Source: Piscinibacter caeni (lineage in GTDB: Bacteria; Pseudomonadota; Gammaproteobacteria; Burkholderiales; Burkholderiaceae_C). Taken from it: DNA of 64,000 nt. The position numbers and the translations under genes are program-made. The notes under the pieces are model-generated. The model was not told where the DNA came from and made no database searches. It saw nothing but the letters and a program-made list of their open reading frames with translations. The stretch is from contig KZ836108.1 in NCBI GenBank assembly GCA_003265685.1, positions 26,397 through 90,396 of the forward strand, given 5' to 3'. This document shows, in pieces, positions 53,265-63,906 of the stretch (its first letter is position 1; every line of letters begins with the position of its first letter).

Positions 53265-56200
53265 TCAGCGCCGCGCCAGCACCGGCGCAAGCGCCGCACC
53301 CGTGTGGCTCGCCGGGTTCGCCGCGAGCGACTCGGGCGTGGTCGCGGCCACCACCCGGCCGCCGCGCGCGCCGCCCTCCGGCCCGAGGTCGACGATCCAG
53401 TCGGCCTCGGCGACGACATCCAGGTCGTGTTCGATCACCACCACGCTGTGCCCGCCGTCCACCAGCCGGTGCAGCACGCGGATCAGCTTCTCCACGTCGG
53501 CCATGTGCAGGCCGACGGTCGGCTCGTCCAGCACGTAGAGCGTGTGCGGCGCCTTGTTGCCGCGCCGGGTGACGTCGTCGCGCACCTTGGTCAGCTCGGT
53601 CACGAGCTTGATGCGCTGCGCCTCGCCGCCGGAGAGCGTGGGGCTCGGCTGGCCGAGCGTCAGGTAGCCCAGGCCGACATCGCGCAGCAGCGACAGCGGG
53701 TAGGCGATCGCCGGCATCGAGGCGAAGAACTCGACCGCCTCGTCCACCTCCATCGTCAGCACCTCGCCGATGTGCTTGCCGCGCCAGCTCACCGCCAGCG
53801 TCTCGGGGTTGAAGCGCTGGCCGTGGCAGACGTCGCAAGGCACCTTCACGTCGGGCAGGAAACTCATCTCGATGGTGCGCAGGCCCTGCCCTTCGCAGGC
53901 CGGGCAGCGCCCCTCGCCGGTGTTGAACGAGAAGCGCGCCGGCCCGTAGCCGCGCGCCTTGGCCTCCAGCGTGTCGGCGAACAGGCGGCGGATGGTGTCC
54001 CAGAAGCCGATGTAGGTGGCCGGGCAGGAGCGCGGCGTCTTGCCGATCGGCGTCTGGTCGACCTCGAGCACGCGGTCGATGCGCGAGTAGCCGTCGATCG
54101 CGCTGCAGCCGGCCCAGGCCGGCCTGCCGCCGCGGGTGTTGACGAACTGCAGGTTGGCCAGCAGCACGTCGCGCGCGAGCGTGGACTTGCCCGAGCCACT
54201 GACCCCGGTGACGGCCACCAGCCGGCCCAGCGGCACCGCCACGTCGAGCCCCTGCAGGTTGTGCAGCGCGGCGCCGCGCACCAGCAGCTGCGGCGTGGTG
54301 TCGTCGACCGGCCGGCGCGGCTGCAGCGGGTGCGTCATCGGCGCGGCGAGGAAGCGGCCGGTCACCGAGTCCGCATGCGCCGCCAGCGCGTGCAGGTCGC
54401 CCTGCGCCACCAGCCGGCCGCCACGCTTGCCGGCGCCGGGGCCGATGTCGATGATGTGGTCGGCACGGCGGATGGTGTCCTCGTCGTGCTCGACGACCAC
54501 CAGCGTGTTGCCCTTGTCGCCCAGCTTGTGCAGCGCGTCGAGCAGGATCTGGTTGTCGCGCGGGTGCAGGCCGATGGTCGGCTCGTCGAGCACGTAGCAC
54601 ACCCCCTGCAGGTTGCTGCCGAGCTGCGCCGCGAGCCGGATGCGCTGCGCCTCGCCGCCGGAGAGTGTGGGCGCGGCGCGATCGAGCGTCAGATAGCCGA
54701 GGCCCACCTCCTCGAGGAACTCGAGCCGGCTGCGGATCTCGCTGATCACGTCGCGGGCGATGTCGGCCTCGCGGCCTTCGAGCCGGAGCGCCTCGATCCA
54801 GCGGCGCGTGTCCGAGACGCTCCACTGGGCGATCGCGGTGATCGCCTTGTCGTCGAAGGTCACGCCGCGCGAGGCCGGGTTCAGGCGCGTGCCGGCGCAG
54901 TCCGGGCAGGGTGCGTCGACCACGCCCTCGACCTCGGGCTCCTCGGACGGGAAGCTCTGCTCGCGGCCCTTGTCATCATCGTCGCGCCGGCTGTCGTCGT
55001 AGGCCTTGCGCTGCTCGCGCGTCAGCGCGAGGCCGGTGCCGACGCAGCTGCTGCACCAGCCATGCTTGCTGTTGTAGCTGAACATGCGCGGGTCCAGCTC
55101 GGGGTAGCTGGTGCCGCACACCGGGCAGGCACGCTTGGTGGAGAACACCTTCACGGTGCCGATGCGGCCGGTCGGCGCGCCCGTGGCCATCGCGCCCTTC
55201 AGGCCGTCGAGCGGCGCGAGCAGGTGCATCACGCCCTTGCCGAGCTCGAGCGTCTTCGCGAGCAGCGCGCGCAGTTCGACCTCGTTCGCCGGATCGATCA
55301 CCAGGTCGCCCACCGGCAGTTCGAGCGTGTGCTCCTTGAAGCGGTCCAGCCGCGGCCAGGGGTCGACCTTCAGGAACTCGCCGTCCACGCGCAGGTGCGT
55401 GTGGCCGCGCTGCCTGGCCCACTTGGCGAGGTCGGTGTAGACCCCCTTGCGGTTGACGACCAGCGGCGCGAGCAGGCCGACATGCTGGCCCTTGTGATCC
55501 CGCAGCAGTTGCGCCGCGATGCTCTCGGCGCTCTGCGGGCGCACCGGCGCGCCGTCCTTGGTGCAATGCTGCAGGCCGAGCTTCACGTACAGCAGGCGCA
55601 GGAAGTGCCACACCTCCGTCGTCGTCGCCACGGTGCTCTTGCGCCCGCCGCGCGACAGGCGCTGCTCGATCGCGACGGTCGGCGGGATGCCGTACACCGC
55701 ATCCACCTCCGGCCGCCCGGCCGGCTGCACGATGCTGCGCGCGTAGGCGTTGAGCGACTCCAGGTAGCGCCGCTGGCCTTCGTTGAACAGGATGTCGAAC
55801 GCGAGCGTGCTCTTGCCCGAACCCGACACGCCGGTGATCACGCTGAACTGCCCGCGCGGAATGTCCACGTCGAGCGACTTCAGGTTGTGCTCGCGCGCGT
55901 TGACGATGCGGATCACCTCCTCCGCCGCGCGGCGCTGATCGCGCCTTTCCAGCAGGACGCTCTGCAGCGGCCGCGCCTCCTCGACGCCGAGCGCCTGGTC
56001 GTAGTCGGCCAGCGCCTTTCCGGTGTGCGACGTGGGATGCCGCTTCACTTCCTCCGGCGGCCCGGCGCAGACCAGCTCGCCGCCGGCCTCGCCACCTTCG
56101 GGGCCGAGCTCGATCAGCCAGTCGCTGGCGCGGATCACGTCCAGGTTGTGCTCGATCACGACAATCGAGTGGCCGGCGTCGAGCAGCTTGCGGAAGGCCC

Positions 56201-58937
56201 GCATCAGCTTGGCGATGTCGTCGAAGTGCAGGCCGGTGGTCGGCTCGTCGAACAGGTACAGCGTGCCCTTGCGCGCGGCCGGCTGGTTCGGGCCGCCCGC
56301 CGCCTCGGCGAGGAAGCCGGCCAGCTTGAGTCGCTGCGCCTCGCCGCCCGAGAGCGTGGGCACCGGCTGGCCGAGCTTCACGTACTCGAGGCCCACGTCG
56401 ACGATCGGCTGCAGCACGCGCAGCACCTCGCGGTCGTCGCGGAACAGCTGCACCGCCTCGCTGACGGTGAGCTCCAGCACGTCGGCCACGCTGAGCTCGC
56501 GCAGCACCTCGCCCGGAACACGGCGGTCGATCTTGATGTCGAGGATCTCGGCGCGGTAGCGGCGCCCGTCGCAATCCGGGCAGCGCAGGTAGACATCGCT
56601 GAGGAACTGCATCTCCACATGCTCGAAGCCCGAGCCGCCGCAGGTCGGGCAGCGCCCGTCGCCGGCGTTGAAGCTGAACATGCCGGCGCCGTAGCCGCGC
56701 TGCAGCGCGAGCGGCGCCTGCGCGAACAGCTTGCGGATCTCGTCGAACGCGCCGACGTAACTCGCGGGATTCGAACGCGCGGTCTTGCCGATCGGCGACT
56801 GGTCGACGAACACCGCATCGGCCAGCCAGTCGGCGCCGAGCAGGCGGTCGTGCTCGCCGGGTGATTCGGTGGCCTTGCCGAAGTGGCGCTGCAGCGCGGG
56901 GTGCAGCACGTCCTGCATCAGCGTGCTCTTGCCCGAGCCGGAGACGCCGGTCACGCACACCAGGTGCTGGAGCGGGAACTCGACCGTGATGTTCTTCAGG
57001 TTGTGCTCGCGCGCCCCTTCGACGATCAGCCGCGGCGTGGCGGGCCCCACCAGCCGCTTGATGCCCATGCTGACGTGCTTGCGCCCGCCGAGGTAGGCGC
57101 CGGTCAGCGTGTCGGCGCTGCGGATCGCCTCGGGCGTGCCGTCGAACACGATCTGCCCACCGCGTTCGCCCGGGCCCGGGCCCATGTCGATCAGCCGGTC
57201 GGCGGCCAGCATCACGGCCGGGTCGTGCTCGACGACCACCAGCGTGTTGCCGGCGTCGCGCAGGCGCTGCATGGCCTCGACGATGCGGCCCATGTCGCGC
57301 GGGTGCAGGCCGATGCTCGGCTCGTCCAGCACGAACATGGTGTTGACGAGCGAGGTGCCGAGCGCGGTGGTCAGGTTGATGCGCTGCACCTCGCCGCCGG
57401 AGAGCGTGCGGCTCTGGCGGTCCAGCGTCAGGTAGCCGATGCCGACGTCGCACAGGTACTTCAGCCGGGTGCGGATCTCGTCGAGCAGCAGCTTGAGCGC
57501 CTCGTCGAGCATCGAGCTCGGCAGGCTGAGCCGCTCGAAGAGGCGCCTCAGCCGCTCGATCGGGATCAGCATCAGGTCGTGCACCGTCAGCCCGGGCAGC
57601 GCCTCGAGCTGCTGGCGCGACCATTGCACGCCGCGCGGCAGGAAGCGCTGGCCCGGCGGCAGCGCCGCGTCGGCATCCTCCTTCGAGCCCAGGCGCCACA
57701 GCAGCGCCTCGGTCTTCAAGCGCGCGCCGCCGCAGGCCGTGCAGGGGGTGTAGCTGCGGTACTTCGACAAGAGCACGCGGATGTGCATCTTGTAGGCCTT
57801 CGATTCGAGGTACTCGAAGAAGCGCCGGACGCCGTACCACTGCTTGTTCCAGTTGCCGTTCCAGTGCGGCGAGCCGTTGATGACCCAGTCGCGCTGGGCC
57901 TGGGTGAGCTGCGACCAGGGCGTGTCGCGCGGGATGCCGGCCTCGCCGCCGTACTTCAGCAGGTCGTCCTGGCATTCCTTCCAGGCCGGCGTCTGCATCG
58001 GCTTGACCGCGCCGGAGCGCAGCGTCTTGCGGTGGTCCGGGATCACCAGGCCGTAGTCGACGCCGATGACGCGGCCGAAGCCGCGGCAGGTGTCGCAGGC
58101 GCCGTAGGCGGAGTTGAAGCTGAACAGCGCGGGCTGCGGATCGGCGTAGCGGATGTCGCTGTCGGGGCAGTGCAGGCCGGTGCTGAAACGCCACAGCTCC
58201 GGCTCGCCCTCGTCCTTCAGCGCATAGACGTTAACGCGGCCCGCGCCGCGCTTGAGCGCGGTCTCGATCGCCTCGATCGCGCGGATCTTCTCGGTGCCCT
58301 GGAGGCGGAAGCGGTCGGCCACCACGTCCAGCAGCGTGCGCGGCCCGGTCGGCGAGGCCACCTCGCGCTGCGCCTGCACGCGCGTGAACCCGCTCGCGGC
58401 CAGCCACTGCTCGATGTCGGCTGCACTGGTGTTGGCCGGCAGCTCGACCGGGAAGGTGACGACGAGCCGGCGGTCGTCGGCCGCGGTGCGCGCCATCAGC
58501 TCGGCGTAGATCGTCTCCGGCGAATCGTGCCGCACGCGCTGCGCGGTCTGCTTGTCGAACAGCTCGGCGGCACGCGCGAACAGCAGCTTCAGGTGGTCGT
58601 TCAGCTCGGTCATCGTGCCGACCGTGCTGCGGCTCGAGCGCACCGGGTTGGTCTGGTCGATCGCGATCGCCGGCGGCACGCCGTCGACGCGGTCGACCGC
58701 CGGGCGGTCCATGCGGTCTAGGAACTGGCGCGCGTAGGCGCTGAAGGTCTCGACGTAGCGCCGCTGCCCCTCCGCATACAGCGTGTCGAACACCAGGCTG
58801 GACTTGCCCGAGCCGCTCGGCCCGGTGACCACCGTCATCTCGCCGGTGCGGATGTCGAGGTCCAGGTTCTTCAGGTTGTGCTGGCGCGCGCCGCGGATGC
58901 GGATCAGGCCCGATTCGGTTTGGCGGCGTCTGTCCAT
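53265..58937 (-). CDS. Double-length UvrA-family ATPase
   Basis: A 1890-residue protein, twice normal UvrA length: two UvrA-like halves in one chain. Four Walker A motifs are visible at about residues 39, 664, 1036 and 1577 ([11 protein letters not shown] once, [11 protein letters not shown] three times) and four LSGGE signatures ([48 protein letters not shown]). Zn-type CxxC pairs occur in [41 protein letters not shown] and CDVCHGQRF. UvrA normally dimerises; this would be a covalent dimer. Nucleotide excision repair or a paralogous damage-protection role is inferred; the standard uvrA is probably elsewhere. ATG start gives [22 protein letters not shown]. Confidence 0.93.
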
Positions 58938-59076: not shown

Positions 59077-62000
59077 GTGCCCAAGGCCATGAAGAACATC
59101 AAGGCACGGCGTGCGCTCCCGGTGTCGATCCCGCTCGTCGTCGCGGCGGCGCTGCTGGCCTCCTGTGGCGGCGGCGACCCCGAACCCGCGGCACCCCCCA
59201 GCACGAGCAGCGCACCCAAGCGCGCCTCGTTCGTGCCCAGCGGCGCGATCCCGAGCGATGCCAACCTGCGCGGCATGTGGTCCCCGGTCACGCCCTGGCC
59301 GCTGATCCCGCTGCACGCGGTGCTGCTGCCCGACGGGCGCGTGATGAGCTACGGCACCAAGGCCGACGGCACGCAGACCGCCTACTTCATCTACGACGTG
59401 TGGGACCCGGCCGGCGGGCTGGCCGGCGGCCACAGCACGCTGGACAACGTCACCGGCACCGACATCTTCTGCAGCTCGCAGCTGCTGCTGCCCAGCGGCG
59501 ACGCGGTGTTCATCGCCGGCGGCGACAACTGGACCGGCAGCGCCACCACCAACACCGGAAACAACAACTCGAACCTGTTCCGGCTCTCGGACAACTCGCT
59601 CAGCCGGCAGTCCAACATGAACCGGGCGCGCTGGTACTCCAGCTCGACCACGCTGCTCAACGGCGAGACCTACGTCCAGGGCGGCAGCAGCGGCACCGAC
59701 CGGCCCGAGGTGCGCCAGACCGACGGCGTGTTCCGCCTGCTCTCCGGCGCGAACACCAGCAGCCTCGACTTCATGTACCCGCGCAACTTCGTCGCGCCGG
59801 ACGGCCGCGTGTTCGGCTACGACAGCGCCGGCCGCATGTACTACGTCGATCCGAGCGGCACGGGCACGCTGACCTCGCTGGGGCAGTTCTCCGGCAGCTA
59901 CACGGGCAGCGACGCCAGCGCGGCGATGTTCCGGCCCGGGCGCATCCTGCAGTTCGGCGGCAACAGCAACGGCGCGGCGGTGATCGACATCCGCGGCGGC
60001 ACGCCGGTGGTCACGCCGACCGGCTCGATGTCGACGCAGCGCCGGCTCGTCAACGCCACCATCCTGCCCAACGGGCGGGTGCTTGCCACCGGCGGCAGCC
60101 GCACCTGGAACGAGCTCGATCAGGTCAACAACAGCGCCGAGATCTGGAACCCGGACACCGGCACCTGGACCGTCGGCGCCTCGGGCGTGCAAGCGCGCCT
60201 GTACCACTCGATCTCGCTGCTGCTGCCCGACGGCTCGGTGATGGTCGGCGGCGGCGGCGCGCCCGGGCCGCAGAACAACACCAACTTCGAGCTGTACTTC
60301 CCGCCCTACCTGTTCACCGCCGGCGGCCAGCTCGCGCCGCGCCCGGTGATCGACGCGGCGCCGACGGTGATGGACATCGGCCGCACCTACACGCTGGACA
60401 CCTCCGGCGCCGGCCCGGCCGCGCGCGTGGTGATGATCAAGACCGGCTCGGTGACGCACAGCTGGAACATGGAGCAGCGCTTCATCGAGCTGACCTTCGC
60501 GGCCGACGGCAACCGCCTCGCCGTGCAGGCGCCCACACGCGCCGCCGATGCGCCGCCGGGCTTCTACATGCTGTTCGTGCTCGATGCCAACGGCGTGCCG
60601 TCGGAGGCGAAGATCGTGCGCGTCAACGTCGCGGCCACGCCCAACCCGGCCACCGTGCCGACGCTCGCGTCGCCGGGCGACCGCACCGGCACCGTCGGCA
60701 GCCCCGCCAGCGTGCAGCTGACCGGCAGCGATCCGAACGGCGACACGCTGCGCTACAGCGCCACCGGCCTGCCGCCGGGCCTCGCGATCGACCCCGCCAC
60801 CGGCCTGATCTCCGGCATGCCGACGACGGCCGGCACCTACAACGTCGTCGCCGCGGTGAGCGACGGCGTGAACAACGCCAGCGTCGGCTTCACCTGGACG
60901 GTGAACGGCAGCGGCGGCGGGCTGAGCGTCTCGATCGGGCTTGCCCCGGGTGCGACGCTGGCCGGCAGCAACGCCAGCTTCACCGCCAGCGCCACCGGCA
61001 GCAACGTGCGCTACCGCTGGGACTTCGGCGACGGCAGCGCCACCGACTGGAGCAGCTCGCCCGATGCCAGCCACGCCTACGCGCAGCCGGGCCTCTACAC
61101 GGTGACGGTCAGCGTGACCGACGACAGCGGCATCGAGCAGCGCGCCTCGGTGCTGCAGGCGATCTACCTCGCGCCGACGGCCGGCACGCCGGTGGCCTCG
61201 GGTCCGCTGGCGCTGGCCGGCGGCCGGCTCTGGGTGGTGAACCCGGACAACGACAGCGTGTCGGTGTTCGACACCGGCACGCGTGCGCGCCTGGCCGAGA
61301 TCGCGGTCGGTGCCGCGCCGCGCACGCTGGCGGTCGCCGCCAACGGGCTGGTGTGGGTGACGAACAAGCGCGCCGCGAGCCTCTCGGTGATCGACCCGGC
61401 CTCGCTGTCGGTGGTGCGCACCATCGCGCTGCCGCGCGGCTCGGCGCCCTACGGCGTGGCGGCCTCGGCGAACGGCTTCGCGCTGGTGGTGCTCGAGGGC
61501 AGCGGCACGGTGCTGAAGTTCGACACGACGAGCTTCGCGCAGACCGGCAGCCTGGCGGTGGGTGCCAACCCGCGGCATGTGGCGCTGGCTGCCGACGGCG
61601 CCAGTGCCTACGTGAGCCGCTTCATCACCCCGCCCGCGCCGGGCGAGGCGACGGCCACGCCGGGCAACGGCAACGGCGAGCTGCTGGTGCTGAACACTGC
61701 CAGCCTGGCGCTGACGCGCACCATCACGCTGGCCACCAGCAGCAAGCCGGACTTCGAGAACCAGGGCCGCGGCCTGCCGAACTACCTCGGCGCGGCAGCG
61801 ATCTCGCCCGACGGCACGGCGGCCTGGGTGCCCTCGAAGCAGGACAACATCCAGCGCGGCGGCGCGCGCGACGGCCTGCCGCTGAACTTCCAGAACACCG
61901 TGCGTGCGATCAGCTCGCGCGTGCTGCTGGCCAGCGGCAGCGAGGACCTGCCCGGCCGCATCGACCACGACAACGCCAGCCTGGCGAGCGCCGCGGCCTT

Positions 62001-63906
62001 CGACCCGAAGGGCCTGTACCTGTTCGTCGCGCTCGAGACCAGCCGCGAGGTGGCGGTGGTCGACGCCCACGGCAAGCGCGAGCTGTTCCGCTTCGGCACC
62101 GGCCTCGCGCCGCAGGGTCTGGCCGTCTCGGCCGACGGGCAGACGCTGTACGTGCAGAACTTCATGGACCGCACGGTGAACGTGCACGACCTGCGGCCGC
62201 TCGCCGGCGGGCAGCTGTCGGCGCCGCTGCAGGCGACGCTGGGGACGATCAGCGTCGACAAGCTCGCCCCCACCGTGCTGCGCGGCAAGCAACTCTTCTA
62301 CGACGCGGCCGATCCGCGCCTGGCGCGCGACCGCTACATGAGCTGCGCCAGCTGCCACAACGACGGCGGGCACGACGGCCGTACCTGGGACCTGTCTAAC
62401 TTCGGCGAAGGCCTGCGCAACACCATCAGCCTGCGCGGCCGTGCCGGCATGGGCCAGGGCTGGCTGCACTGGAGCAACAACTTCGACGAGGTGCAGGACT
62501 TCGAAGGCCAGATCCGCAACCTCGCCGGCGGCAGCGGCCTGATGGCCGACGCCGACTTCGCGGCCGGCACGCGCAGCCAGCCGCTCGGGGACGCGAAGAC
62601 CGGCCTGTCGAGCGACCTCGATGCGCTGACCGCCTACCTGGCCTCGCTGAACGCGTTCGAGCCGAGCCCGCACCGGCCCTCGGCCGCGTCCTTGTCTGCG
62701 GCGGGCAGCGCCGGCAAGACGCTGTTCACGTCGATGAACTGCGCCGCCTGCCACGCCGGCACGGCGTTCAGCGCCAGCGGCATCAACACGCCGGCCAACA
62801 TCGGCACGCTCAAGTCCACCAGCGGCCAGCGGCTCGGCGGCGCGCTGACCGGCATCGACCCGCCGACCCTGCGCGACGTCTGGGCCACCGCGCCCTACCT
62901 GCACGACGGCTCGGCGGCCACGCTCGAGGCCGCGGTGCGCGCGCACAACAACGTGACGATCACCGACGCGAACCTCGCCAGCCTGGTGGCCTACCTGCGC
63001 GAGATCGGCAGCGACGAGGCCGCCGCGCCGCAGGCCGCCGGCACCGGCACGGGCCTGGCCGCGAGCTACTACAACAGCGTCACGCCCGGCGGCACCGCGG
63101 TGCTGTCGCGCACCGAGGCGGTCGACTTCGACTGGGGCACCGGCTCGCCGGGCACCGGGGTGAACGCCGACAACTTCTCGGCGCGCTGGAGCGGCACGCT
63201 GCTCGTGCCTGCCAGCGGCAGCTACCGCTTCCAGACCGAGTCGGACGACGGCGTTCGGCTGTGGGTCAACGGCGTGCTGGTGATCGACAACTGGACCGAC
63301 CACGCCCCGACGGTGGACACCAGCGGCGTGATCAACCTGGTGGCCGGCACGCAGGTGGAGATCGTCGCCGAGTACTACGAGAAGGGCGGCGGCGCGGTGA
63401 TGCGGCTGCGCTGGCAGGCGCCGGGTGAAGCGGGCTTCGCGGCCATCCCGGCGGCGCGCCTGGCGCGTCCGCCGGCGGGCAGCGGCCTGGCCGGCAGCTA
63501 CTTCGCCAACACCTCGCTGTCCGGCACCGCGGTGCTGACGCGCACCGAGGCGATCGACTTCAACTGGGGCAGCGGCTCGCCCGGCACCGGCGTGCCGAGC
63601 AACGGGTTCTCGGCGCGCTGGACCGGCAGCCTGCTCGCGCCGAGCAGCGGCAGCTACCGCTTCCAGACCGTCTCGGACGACGGCGTGCGGGTGTGGATCA
63701 ACGGCACCCAGGTCATCAACAACTGGACCAACCACTCGTCGACCACCAACACCAGCGGCAACGTGAACCTGACGGCCGGCCAGCGCTACACGGTGCGGGT
63801 GGAGTACTACGACAACACCGGCAACGCGGTGATGCGGCTGCGCTGGCGCCTGCCCGGCACGACGAGCTACGTGGCCATTCCGGCGGCCAGCCTGTACACG
63901 AACTGA
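59077..63906 (+). CDS. Copper radical oxidase / di-heme peroxidase / PA14 fusion lipoprotein
   Basis: A 1609-residue predicted lipoprotein (lipobox LASC, Cys30). Domain order: kelch-type galactose oxidase (about 45-425) with all five cofactor and copper positions (Cys132 in DIFCSSQ, Tyr187 in RWYSSS, Tyr376-His377 in RLYHSIS, His461 in VTHSWN), DUF1929 (about 425-525), putative-Ig (527-610), PKD (617-700, WDFGDGS), YVTN-like beta-propeller (705-1060), di-heme MauG/CCP-like domain (about 1070-1315; CASCH 1090-1094, CAACH 1222-1226, APYLHDGS), two PA14 domains (1325-1463, 1469-1609). GTG 59077 is chosen: GGAGGG lies six bases upstream. The oxidase would yield H2O2 that the heme domain could consume (inference). 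Confidence 0.9.
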   Translation: MPKAMKNIKARRALPVSIPLVVAAALLASCGGGDPEPAAPPSTSSAPKRASFVPSGAIPSDANLRGMWSPVTPWPLIPLHAVLLPDGRVMSYGTKADGTQTAYFIYDVWDPAGGLAGGHSTLDNVTGTDIFCSSQLLLPSGDAVFIAGGDNWTGSATTNTGNNNSNLFRLSDNSLSRQSNMNRARWYSSSTTLLNGETYVQGGSSGTDRPEVRQTDGVFRLLSGANTSSLDFMYPRNFVAPDGRVFGYDSAGRMYYVDPSGTGTLTSLGQFSGSYTGSDASAAMFRPGRILQFGGNSNGAAVIDIRGGTPVVTPTGSMSTQRRLVNATILPNGRVLATGGSRTWNELDQVNNSAEIWNPDTGTWTVGASGVQARLYHSISLLLPDGSVMVGGGGAPGPQNNTNFELYFPPYLFTAGGQLAPRPVIDAAPTVMDIGRTYTLDTSGAGPAARVVMIKTGSVTHSWNMEQRFIELTFAADGNRLAVQAPTRAADAPPGFYMLFVLDANGVPSEAKIVRVNVAATPNPATVPTLASPGDRTGTVGSPASVQLTGSDPNGDTLRYSATGLPPGLAIDPATGLISGMPTTAGTYNVVAAVSDGVNNASVGFTWTVNGSGGGLSVSIGLAPGATLAGSNASFTASATGSNVRYRWDFGDGSATDWSSSPDASHAYAQPGLYTVTVSVTDDSGIEQRASVLQAIYLAPTAGTPVASGPLALAGGRLWVVNPDNDSVSVFDTGTRARLAEIAVGAAPRTLAVAANGLVWVTNKRAASLSVIDPASLSVVRTIALPRGSAPYGVAASANGFALVVLEGSGTVLKFDTTSFAQTGSLAVGANPRHVALAADGASAYVSRFITPPAPGEATATPGNGNGELLVLNTASLALTRTITLATSSKPDFENQGRGLPNYLGAAAISPDGTAAWVPSKQDNIQRGGARDGLPLNFQNTVRAISSRVLLASGSEDLPGRIDHDNASLASAAAFDPKGLYLFVALETSREVAVVDAHGKRELFRFGTGLAPQGLAVSADGQTLYVQNFMDRTVNVHDLRPLAGGQLSAPLQATLGTISVDKLAPTVLRGKQLFYDAADPRLARDRYMSCASCHNDGGHDGRTWDLSNFGEGLRNTISLRGRAGMGQGWLHWSNNFDEVQDFEGQIRNLAGGSGLMADADFAAGTRSQPLGDAKTGLSSDLDALTAYLASLNAFEPSPHRPSAASLSAAGSAGKTLFTSMNCAACHAGTAFSASGINTPANIGTLKSTSGQRLGGALTGIDPPTLRDVWATAPYLHDGSAATLEAAVRAHNNVTITDANLASLVAYLREIGSDEAAAPQAAGTGTGLAASYYNSVTPGGTAVLSRTEAVDFDWGTGSPGTGVNADNFSARWSGTLLVPASGSYRFQTESDDGVRLWVNGVLVIDNWTDHAPTVDTSGVINLVAGTQVEIVAEYYEKGGGAVMRLRWQAPGEAGFAAIPAARLARPPAGSGLAGSYFANTSLSGTAVLTRTEAIDFNWGSGSPGTGVPSNGFSARWTGSLLAPSSGSYRFQTVSDDGVRVWINGTQVINNWTNHSSTTNTSGNVNLTAGQRYTVRVEYYDNTGNAVMRLRWRLPGTTSYVAIPAASLYTN

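Follow-up and report, generated by a model that had tools for sequence, protein, structure and literature searches.

In copper radical oxidases, upkeep of the radical and removal of H2O2 have so far been tied to separate peroxidases of fungi and Streptomyces. Maturation of the Streptomyces oxidase GlxA needs both Sco and DtpA, the latter of which consumes the H2O2 made by GlxA (PMC4736821), while in fungi a heme peroxidase activates a copper radical alcohol oxidase via one-electron oxidation (PMC9770985). In the Burkholderia AA5-CE3 alcohol oxidase, a bacterial AA5 oxidase shares its chain with a CE3 domain, which is called catalytically inactive in the title of the study (Mazurkewich 2023, cited in PMC11267884). 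Among heme proteins, hydrazine synthase beta-gamma and its fused homologues consist of a propeller followed by a di-heme domain similar to bacterial di-heme cytochrome c peroxidases (CCPs). According to PMC12758564, the fused homologues outside anammox conserve a Trp and include one clade with extra N-terminal heme domains; the main text of this source contains neither "galactose" nor "kelch".

We analyzed a window, i.e., the whole stretch of 64,000 nucleotides from Piscinibacter caeni (contig KZ836108.1, positions 26,397 to 90,396), that encodes a protein related to all of these systems. It has the same fold and all five Cu/Tyr-Cys residues as the galactose oxidases of family AA5 (1gof, 9g43/9g8h, and 5c86) but differs from them by a Ser at the place of Trp290 and by a fused propeller-di-heme module. 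The GlxA/Sco/DtpA system similarly links a bacterial copper radical oxidase to a Sco chaperone and an H2O2-using heme enzyme, but there these are separate proteins with a DyP-type peroxidase, while the window protein is one chain. The fungal tandem resembles it in pairing a copper radical oxidase with an activating heme peroxidase but comprises two secreted, unfused proteins with another class of peroxidase, and the Burkholderia enzyme is likewise a fused AA5 oxidase, though with CE3 as partner and no heme domain in the title. Hydrazine synthase beta-gamma shares the order of propeller and CCP-like di-heme, yet the N-terminal partner in the window protein is a copper radical oxidase and its scores lie far under the hydrazine synthase cut-offs. 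Finally, bacterial di-heme CCPs align over the whole di-heme domain and top a single-sequence search, but the window protein has a His for their axial Met, no aligned Glu, and a seven-residue acidic insert.

The preliminary description of this gene regarded the combination as apparently undescribed, and we found no precedent either: among the matches listed from the open full-text literature (with few subscription papers covered), none joins a copper radical oxidase to a di-heme domain, and the main text of the CCP_MauG network paper (PMC6405878) mentions neither "propeller" nor "galactose". The individual parts are known, and the combination of oxidase and propeller-di-heme is without precedent in the literature covered. 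As a natural single-chain oxidase-di-heme protein, it makes the question of radical upkeep and H2O2 removal testable on one polypeptide, and a hydrazine-synthase-like propeller-di-heme on a copper enzyme would represent a portable redox unit.

Architecture and the copper oxidase domain

The protein is encoded by one open frame at 59077-63906 (+) of 1609 codons plus stop. Its domain order according to Pfam and NCBIfam is galactose-oxidase-like, He_PIG, PKD, YVTN/YncE-type propeller, CCP_MauG di-heme, and two PA14 domains, with the following features:

59077..63906 (+), fused gene, 1609 codons from GTG 59077 or 1605 from ATG 59089
59089..59166 (+), predicted lipoprotein signal peptide, lipobox LLASC ending at Cys30 (from sequence)
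59260..60627 (+), galactose-oxidase/AA5-like kelch propeller and early-set domain, residues 62-517 (domain and structure-sequence searches; fold from homologue L038)
59470..59472 (+), Cys132 of the Tyr-Cys cofactor (64/64 oxidase-propeller proteins)
59635..59637 (+), Tyr187, radical ligand of the Tyr-Cys cofactor (64/64)
60202..60207 (+), Tyr376 and His377, copper ligands (64/64 each)
60457..60459 (+), His461, copper ligand (64/64)
60658..60906 (+), He_PIG Ig-like domain, residues 528-610 (Pfam/NCBIfam domain search)
60946..61146 (+), PKD domain, residues 624-690 (Pfam/NCBIfam domain search)
61210..62196 (+), YVTN/YncE-type beta-propeller, residues 712-1040 (about 700-1040; domain searches and predicted structure)
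62224..63024 (+), di-heme c domain of the CCP/MauG superfamily, residues 1050-1316 (PF03150, sequence and profile searches)
62344..62358 (+), first CxxCH, residues 1090-1094 (85/85 aligned domains)
62467..62472 (+), His1131-Trp1132, the Trp aligning with the FWDGR Trp of bacterial CCP (72/72 and 71/72)
62740..62754 (+), second CxxCH, residues 1222-1226 (85/85 aligned domains)
62944..62946 (+), His1290 at the classical CCP axial-Met place (57/57 with oxidase, 0/11 without)
63043..63471 (+), PA14 domain 1, residues 1323-1465 (domain and sequence search)
63481..63873 (+), PA14 domain 2, residues 1469-1599 (domain search)

The single lipoprotein-type frame had been recognized in the preliminary description, as had its copper oxidase, di-heme, and PA14 parts, while He_PIG, PKD, and the YVTN propeller had been missed. 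Translation may start either at GTG 59077 or at ATG 59089 (giving 1605 amino acids), and L010 and L011, the two relatives closest to the window protein, share the Met of the latter start at an equal spacing to the lipobox. The strict lipobox pattern fits 35 of 64 oxidase-propeller relatives, and the window protein is predicted to be a large cell-envelope lipoprotein. A locus of Piscinibacter defluvii gives a 92% match over residues 1-1609. We rejected chance or an assembly artefact as the source of this architecture because it recurs across many separate genomes.

The assignment of the N-terminal domain as a copper radical oxidase is well supported by its predicted ligand set and by a modeled fold. 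A search against solved structures aligns residues 65-516 with galactose oxidases (9g8h, E 4.2e-47), PF09118 is found at residues 422-516 (E 1e-24; 87.2 bits against a cut-off of 25), kelch is also matched, and PF07250 scores 37.2 bits, slightly below its cut-off of 37.5. A model of the homologue L038 superimposes on the bacterial galactose oxidase 9g43 with a Z of 48.1 and an rmsd of 2.0 over 440 aligned residues. The full ligand set that had been read from the window alone (Cys132, Tyr187, Tyr376, His377, and His461) aligns with that of solved galactose oxidases, and in an alignment of 83 oxidase domains (64 with propeller and 19 counted as unfused) all five residues are present in each of the 64, with a Ser instead of the cofactor Cys in one of the 19. 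Also as suspected before, the stacking Trp290 that marks galactose oxidase sensu stricto is replaced, with Ser205 aligned in the window protein. Among the 64 oxidase-propeller relatives this place is taken by Gly in 29 and by Trp in 15, and because this pocket residue varies, the alignment suggests that the substrate differs between relatives. Membership in the GlxA equivalog was rejected at 145.3 bits (NF052501 cut-off 800).

At the other end of the protein, the two PA14 domains seen before are both found again (E 3.8e-66). A comparison of relatives shows that they are not part of the protein core: L038, from Rhizobacter, consists of oxidase, PKD, propeller, and di-heme and stops there, and AbfB or F5/8C domains are found elsewhere. 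For instance, a Methylobacter copy (L066:2281-7035) has two AbfB stretches, and the second copy in the window's own genome (L091:6677-13210) has one F5/8C domain.

The propeller-di-heme module

The preliminary description had placed two CxxCH hemes in a MauG/CCP-like context, and this holds: the motifs lie at residues 1090-1094 and 1222-1226, and PF03150 (CCP_MauG) scores 40.1 bits (E 7.3e-10; cut-off 25.6). On sequence grounds, the di-heme part is therefore classed as a member of the CCP/MauG superfamily. A single-sequence search is led by cytochrome c peroxidases (1.1e-12), with hydrazine synthase gamma in third place (8.2e-11). A profile of 38 di-heme domains (the window and 37 of 90 references, picked for spread) ranks hydrazine synthase gamma (1.6e-24) above peroxidases (3.9e-20) and MauG (1.1e-8). 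In a profile-based comparison, eight classical peroxidases encoded in related genomes align over the whole domain at a probability of 99.5-99.8.

The structure predicted for residues 618-1321 (pLDDT 93.4, pTM 0.94) contains a propeller that matches hydrazine synthase beta (5c2v_B; Z 38.0, 302 aligned residues, 22% identity) in a tie with the archaeal surface-layer YVTN propeller 1l0q (Z 37.2). Propellers took up the fold-search lists for this propeller-di-heme model, with no CCP among the matches listed, which we do not count against the di-heme fold. Judging from model and sequence, propeller and di-heme form one module that looks like a fused hydrazine synthase beta-gamma.

We counted residues over an alignment of 72 such modules, i.e., the window and 71 of 79 references (L017, L032, L037, L051, L057, L062, L065, and L078 were left out as near-copies or cut). 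It comprises 57 modules with oxidase (including the three split-frame cases L067, L075, and L076), 11 with another N-terminal half, and 4 with cut N-termini that were set apart. His1290 is present in 57/57 modules with oxidase compared to 0/11 with another N-terminal half, and Gln1145 in 57/57 compared to 1/11. In a tree of the modules, a single branch (SH-aLRT 99) sets the oxidase-bearing proteins apart from all others, so that the two contrasts count as one event. In L107 and L108, which are further modules without oxidase, a His occupies the column that follows 1290.

These residues bear on what kind of di-heme enzyme this could be. The Trp between the hemes of bacterial di-heme CCPs has a counterpart in Trp1132 (71/72), but the Met that serves as axial ligand of the electron-transfer heme in CCPs is absent, with His1290 aligned instead. 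Given His at this place in 57/57 modules with oxidase, a bis-His electron-transfer heme is likely, so the second heme is probably His/His. A Glu at the catalytic-Glu column of classical CCPs was not found in the profile alignment with the eight peroxidases. A pocket pair of Gln and Glu is described for YhjA in PMC10301912, and Gln1145 is a candidate for the Gln, though in a shifted alignment column. The seven-residue acidic insert holds Glu1138 and Asp1141, each in 72/72 modules, and these might replace the missing peroxidatic Glu. By its known signature, the di-heme part would not be a peroxidase. Of the "oxidase-peroxidase" proposed for this gene, the fusion of oxidase and di-heme in one chain stands, whereas the peroxidase identity is not supported, given the His at the axial-Met place, the lack of an aligned Glu, and the rank of hydrazine synthase gamma above the peroxidases in the profile search, even though peroxidases lead the single-sequence search. 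We have likewise dropped the label of a free-standing CCP, given His1290 in place of the axial Met.

Other named families were also tried and rejected. MauG carries Tyr294, which we take to be the residue at the CCP axial-Met place, and the window protein has His1290 and no axial Tyr there and scores 40.3 bits against the TIGR03791 cut-off of 443.85. The MauG heme with Tyr-His ligation is described in PMC6405878. MbnH was rejected at 45.9 bits (TIGR04039 cut-off 362.85) and the hydrazine synthase beta-gamma equivalog at 65.6 bits (NF052342 cut-off 1250). In hydrazine synthase gamma, His144 stands at the place of the Trp (PMC12758564), where the window protein has Trp1132.

Distribution, descent, and gene neighborhood

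An architecture search, as had been proposed for this gene, shows how widespread the fusion is. In a scan with one genome per species, 80 of 137 relatives were kept, and 61 of these 80 loci encode oxidase and propeller in one frame. The fusion was found in Pseudomonadota, Verrucomicrobiota, and one Myxococcota. In 59 of the 61 the di-heme lies in the same frame, and in L081 it is encoded by the next, overlapping frame. The frame of L023 (426-3527) comprises oxidase, Ig, PKD, and propeller and ends before any di-heme, none of which is found on its contig; a SCO1-type frame starts four bases on, which could reflect either di-heme loss or a broken reading.

Closer to the window, oxidase and di-heme matches share an open frame in at least 10 of 150 genomes from its family, which rules out that the fusion is peculiar to the window; G068 additionally has a frame cut by a contig end. 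G091, the one genome of the same genus among those listed, gives weak matches only (best E 5e-10). A search for PF09118 across 274 genomes of the class gave 18 places in 10 genomes. Of these 18, at least five are fused to a di-heme domain (the window's genome and G338 have two each, G193 has one), and the place in G362 is truncated where its contig ends. Contig 81 of the window's genome carries the second fused copy, and contig 38 an oxidase-like relative that lacks hemes. Of the 145 plasmid records with a match, a single one aligns over 80% of the query (44% identity); its annotation reads "discoidin domain-containing protein". The pairing is thus patchy yet wide and of long standing, and its recurrence in three phyla suggests that both redox centers would work together.

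A sister architecture has the propeller-di-heme without copper oxidase (L074, L077, L079, L082-L089, L107, and L108). Five of the 11 oxidase-less modules were scanned for domains, which revealed Big_5 in all five, LVIVD repeats in two, and an oxidase in none. In the oxidase tree (built on 83 of the 93 oxidase-matching frames, without the partial ones), oxidase-only proteins (L126-L130 among others) sit among fused ones. Six changes of fused state are needed, with the qualification that L067 and L076, though counted as "unfused" rows, are loci where an overlapping frame encodes the propeller-di-heme. Distances between oxidase domains correlate weakly with those between modules (Spearman 0.33 for 52 proteins, i.e., the window and 51 of 60 candidates). 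Because of this weak correlation and the oxidase-only proteins among fused ones, the oxidase domain may have been exchanged, or the module lost, in some lineages.

Compared to the clade of the second copy from its own genome, the window protein is 55-63% identical in the module but 30-33% in the oxidase (61% and 32% for this second copy itself), while within its closer clade both are alike, e.g., 66% and 67% for L013. A module more conserved than the oxidase would fit a common need served by the former, such as handling of H2O2, the radical state, or electrons, with a varying pocket in the latter, but exchange of oxidase domains would produce the same picture.

The genes next to the fusion point to a source of copper in many relatives. 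Of the 61 fused genes, 24 have a SCO1/SenC copper-chaperone gene next to them on the same strand, and among the 44 with flanks of 1 kb or more at either end the number is 19. The underlying profile was built from 17 clustering neighbors that are hence found by construction; Pfam confirms SCO1/SenC in the five that were scanned (L024, L027, L037, L038, and L091). It is also present beside the second fused copy of the window's genome, whereas none was found near the window's copy or its nearest relatives L010-L012, nor at the 11 loci of oxidase-less modules, some of which have short flanks. Linked copper supply is therefore supported by gene order for the family, though not by the window locus.

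Besides SCO1, MbnP/MbnH-type or similar di-heme genes adjoin 7 of 61 fused genes, with L035, L054, L073, and L081 found by construction of the profile and L045, L069, and L070 as further matches. In the Verrucomicrobia copies L035, L045, L054, L073, and L081, the MbnP/MbnH-type gene lies upstream, and in the two that were scanned (L035 and L073) this one gene encodes both MbnP and a CCP_MauG di-heme domain. Four loci encode a small protein with one CxxCH beside the fused gene, and in L028, L064, and L065 this small gene sits between the fused gene and SCO1; Pfam identifies the L028 protein as cytochrome c and gives no match for L064. The flanks of the window gene have no SCO1, MbnP/MbnH-type, or small CxxCH gene. 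Upstream is a divergent UvrA gene, and downstream are a periplasmic binding protein and a GntR/FCD regulator, neither of which is hydrazine synthase alpha.

Possible roles of the hemes

Our main reading, to which we assign a probability of roughly 0.4, is that a propeller-di-heme module built into a copper radical oxidase is coupled to it via H2O2 and re-activates the copper site. The N-terminal domain would bind copper, build the Tyr-Cys cofactor, and oxidize a primary alcohol or aldehyde with release of H2O2, a step well supported by ligands and fold. The di-heme domain, held by the propeller, would then react with H2O2 at its N-terminal heme, with the second, probably His/His heme serving as an electron port, and its oxidizing power might return the copper site to the active Cu(II)-radical form by one-electron re-oxidation. 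Alternatively, electrons could be drawn from a small cytochrome c and the peroxide thereby removed. PA14 or other carbohydrate-binding domains may anchor the enzyme on a polysaccharide surface.

Several observations are in favor of this coupled oxidase, i.e., the ligands in 64/64 proteins, the L038 fold, CxxCH motifs in 85/85 domains, Trp1132 in 71/72, the separate module branch, the occurrence in three phyla, the conservation of the module, the neighboring SCO1 and small CxxCH genes, and the fungal and Streptomyces precedents. Against it stand the incomplete peroxidase signature, hydrazine synthase gamma as nearest relative by profile, the lack of SCO1 at the window's copy and L010-L012, L023 with its missing di-heme, the oxidase-only proteins, the weakly correlated domain distances, and residue contrasts that go back to one split. 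The proposed coupling between di-heme and copper site is what we infer from this pattern. A two-domain model of L038, cut to 1200 residues, reaches a pTM of 0.64 with a weak linker, so that domain placement is unreliable and no distance supports a transfer.

The alternative that survives best, though unlikely in our view, is that the di-heme replaces O2 as acceptor and passes electrons to a cytochrome c, which would turn the protein into a copper-radical dehydrogenase forming little H2O2. The likely bis-His electron-transfer heme implied by His1290 would suit such an outlet, as would the small CxxCH proteins encoded next door at four loci and the lack of a Glu aligned with the peroxidatic one, and heme gamma-II of hydrazine synthase is bis-His and thought to transfer electrons (PMC12758564). 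However, the first heme pocket keeps His1131, Glu1138, and Asp1141 in 72/72 modules each, beyond what a relay needs, and the L038 model offers no reliable Cu-heme geometry. Moreover, no copper radical oxidase is known to act as a dehydrogenase. Tentatively, and at less than even odds, one might see in these proteins an oxidase wired to c-type hemes across three phyla, in which the di-heme either re-arms the radical with the enzyme's own H2O2 or drains electrons without O2. Neither a self-activating nor a dehydrogenase mode of copper radical chemistry is known for any member.

It is improbable that the module has no chemical coupling to the oxidase and instead senses or binds something, or is a spacer or part of an adhesin. 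Its occurrence with other N-terminal halves (Big_5 in 5/5 and LVIVD in 2/5 scanned), the many Ig and PA14 repeats, and the L023 copy without di-heme would be compatible with such a role, but all 72 modules share the same heme motifs and several pocket residues, which would be superfluous for a spacer. Least probable of all is a MauG/MbnH-like modifier that uses the oxidase's H2O2 to oxidize a side chain, Trp or another, of its own propeller or of a partner protein, as superfamily membership, Trp1132, and the di-heme genes of MbnP/MbnH or related type that neighbor 7 of 61 fused genes might indicate, because the axial place holds His instead of MauG's Tyr, the scores lie far under the MauG and MbnH cut-offs, and MbnP/MbnH-type neighbors, where present, could do that chemistry themselves.

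A few individual loci deserve mention on their own. In L135 (256-7959, contig 1 of G108), a 2568-aa frame encodes a copper oxidase together with two propeller-di-heme modules that score equally by profile and have four CxxCH in total, reflecting either a duplication or an assembly error. In Marinobacter salarius (L075, complete genome CP007152), oxidase and propeller-di-heme are split over several frames, perhaps as a decaying copy. The UvrA-type protein next to the window's fused gene (53265-58937, -) is 1890 aa long, about twice the model length, with UvrA matches in both halves.
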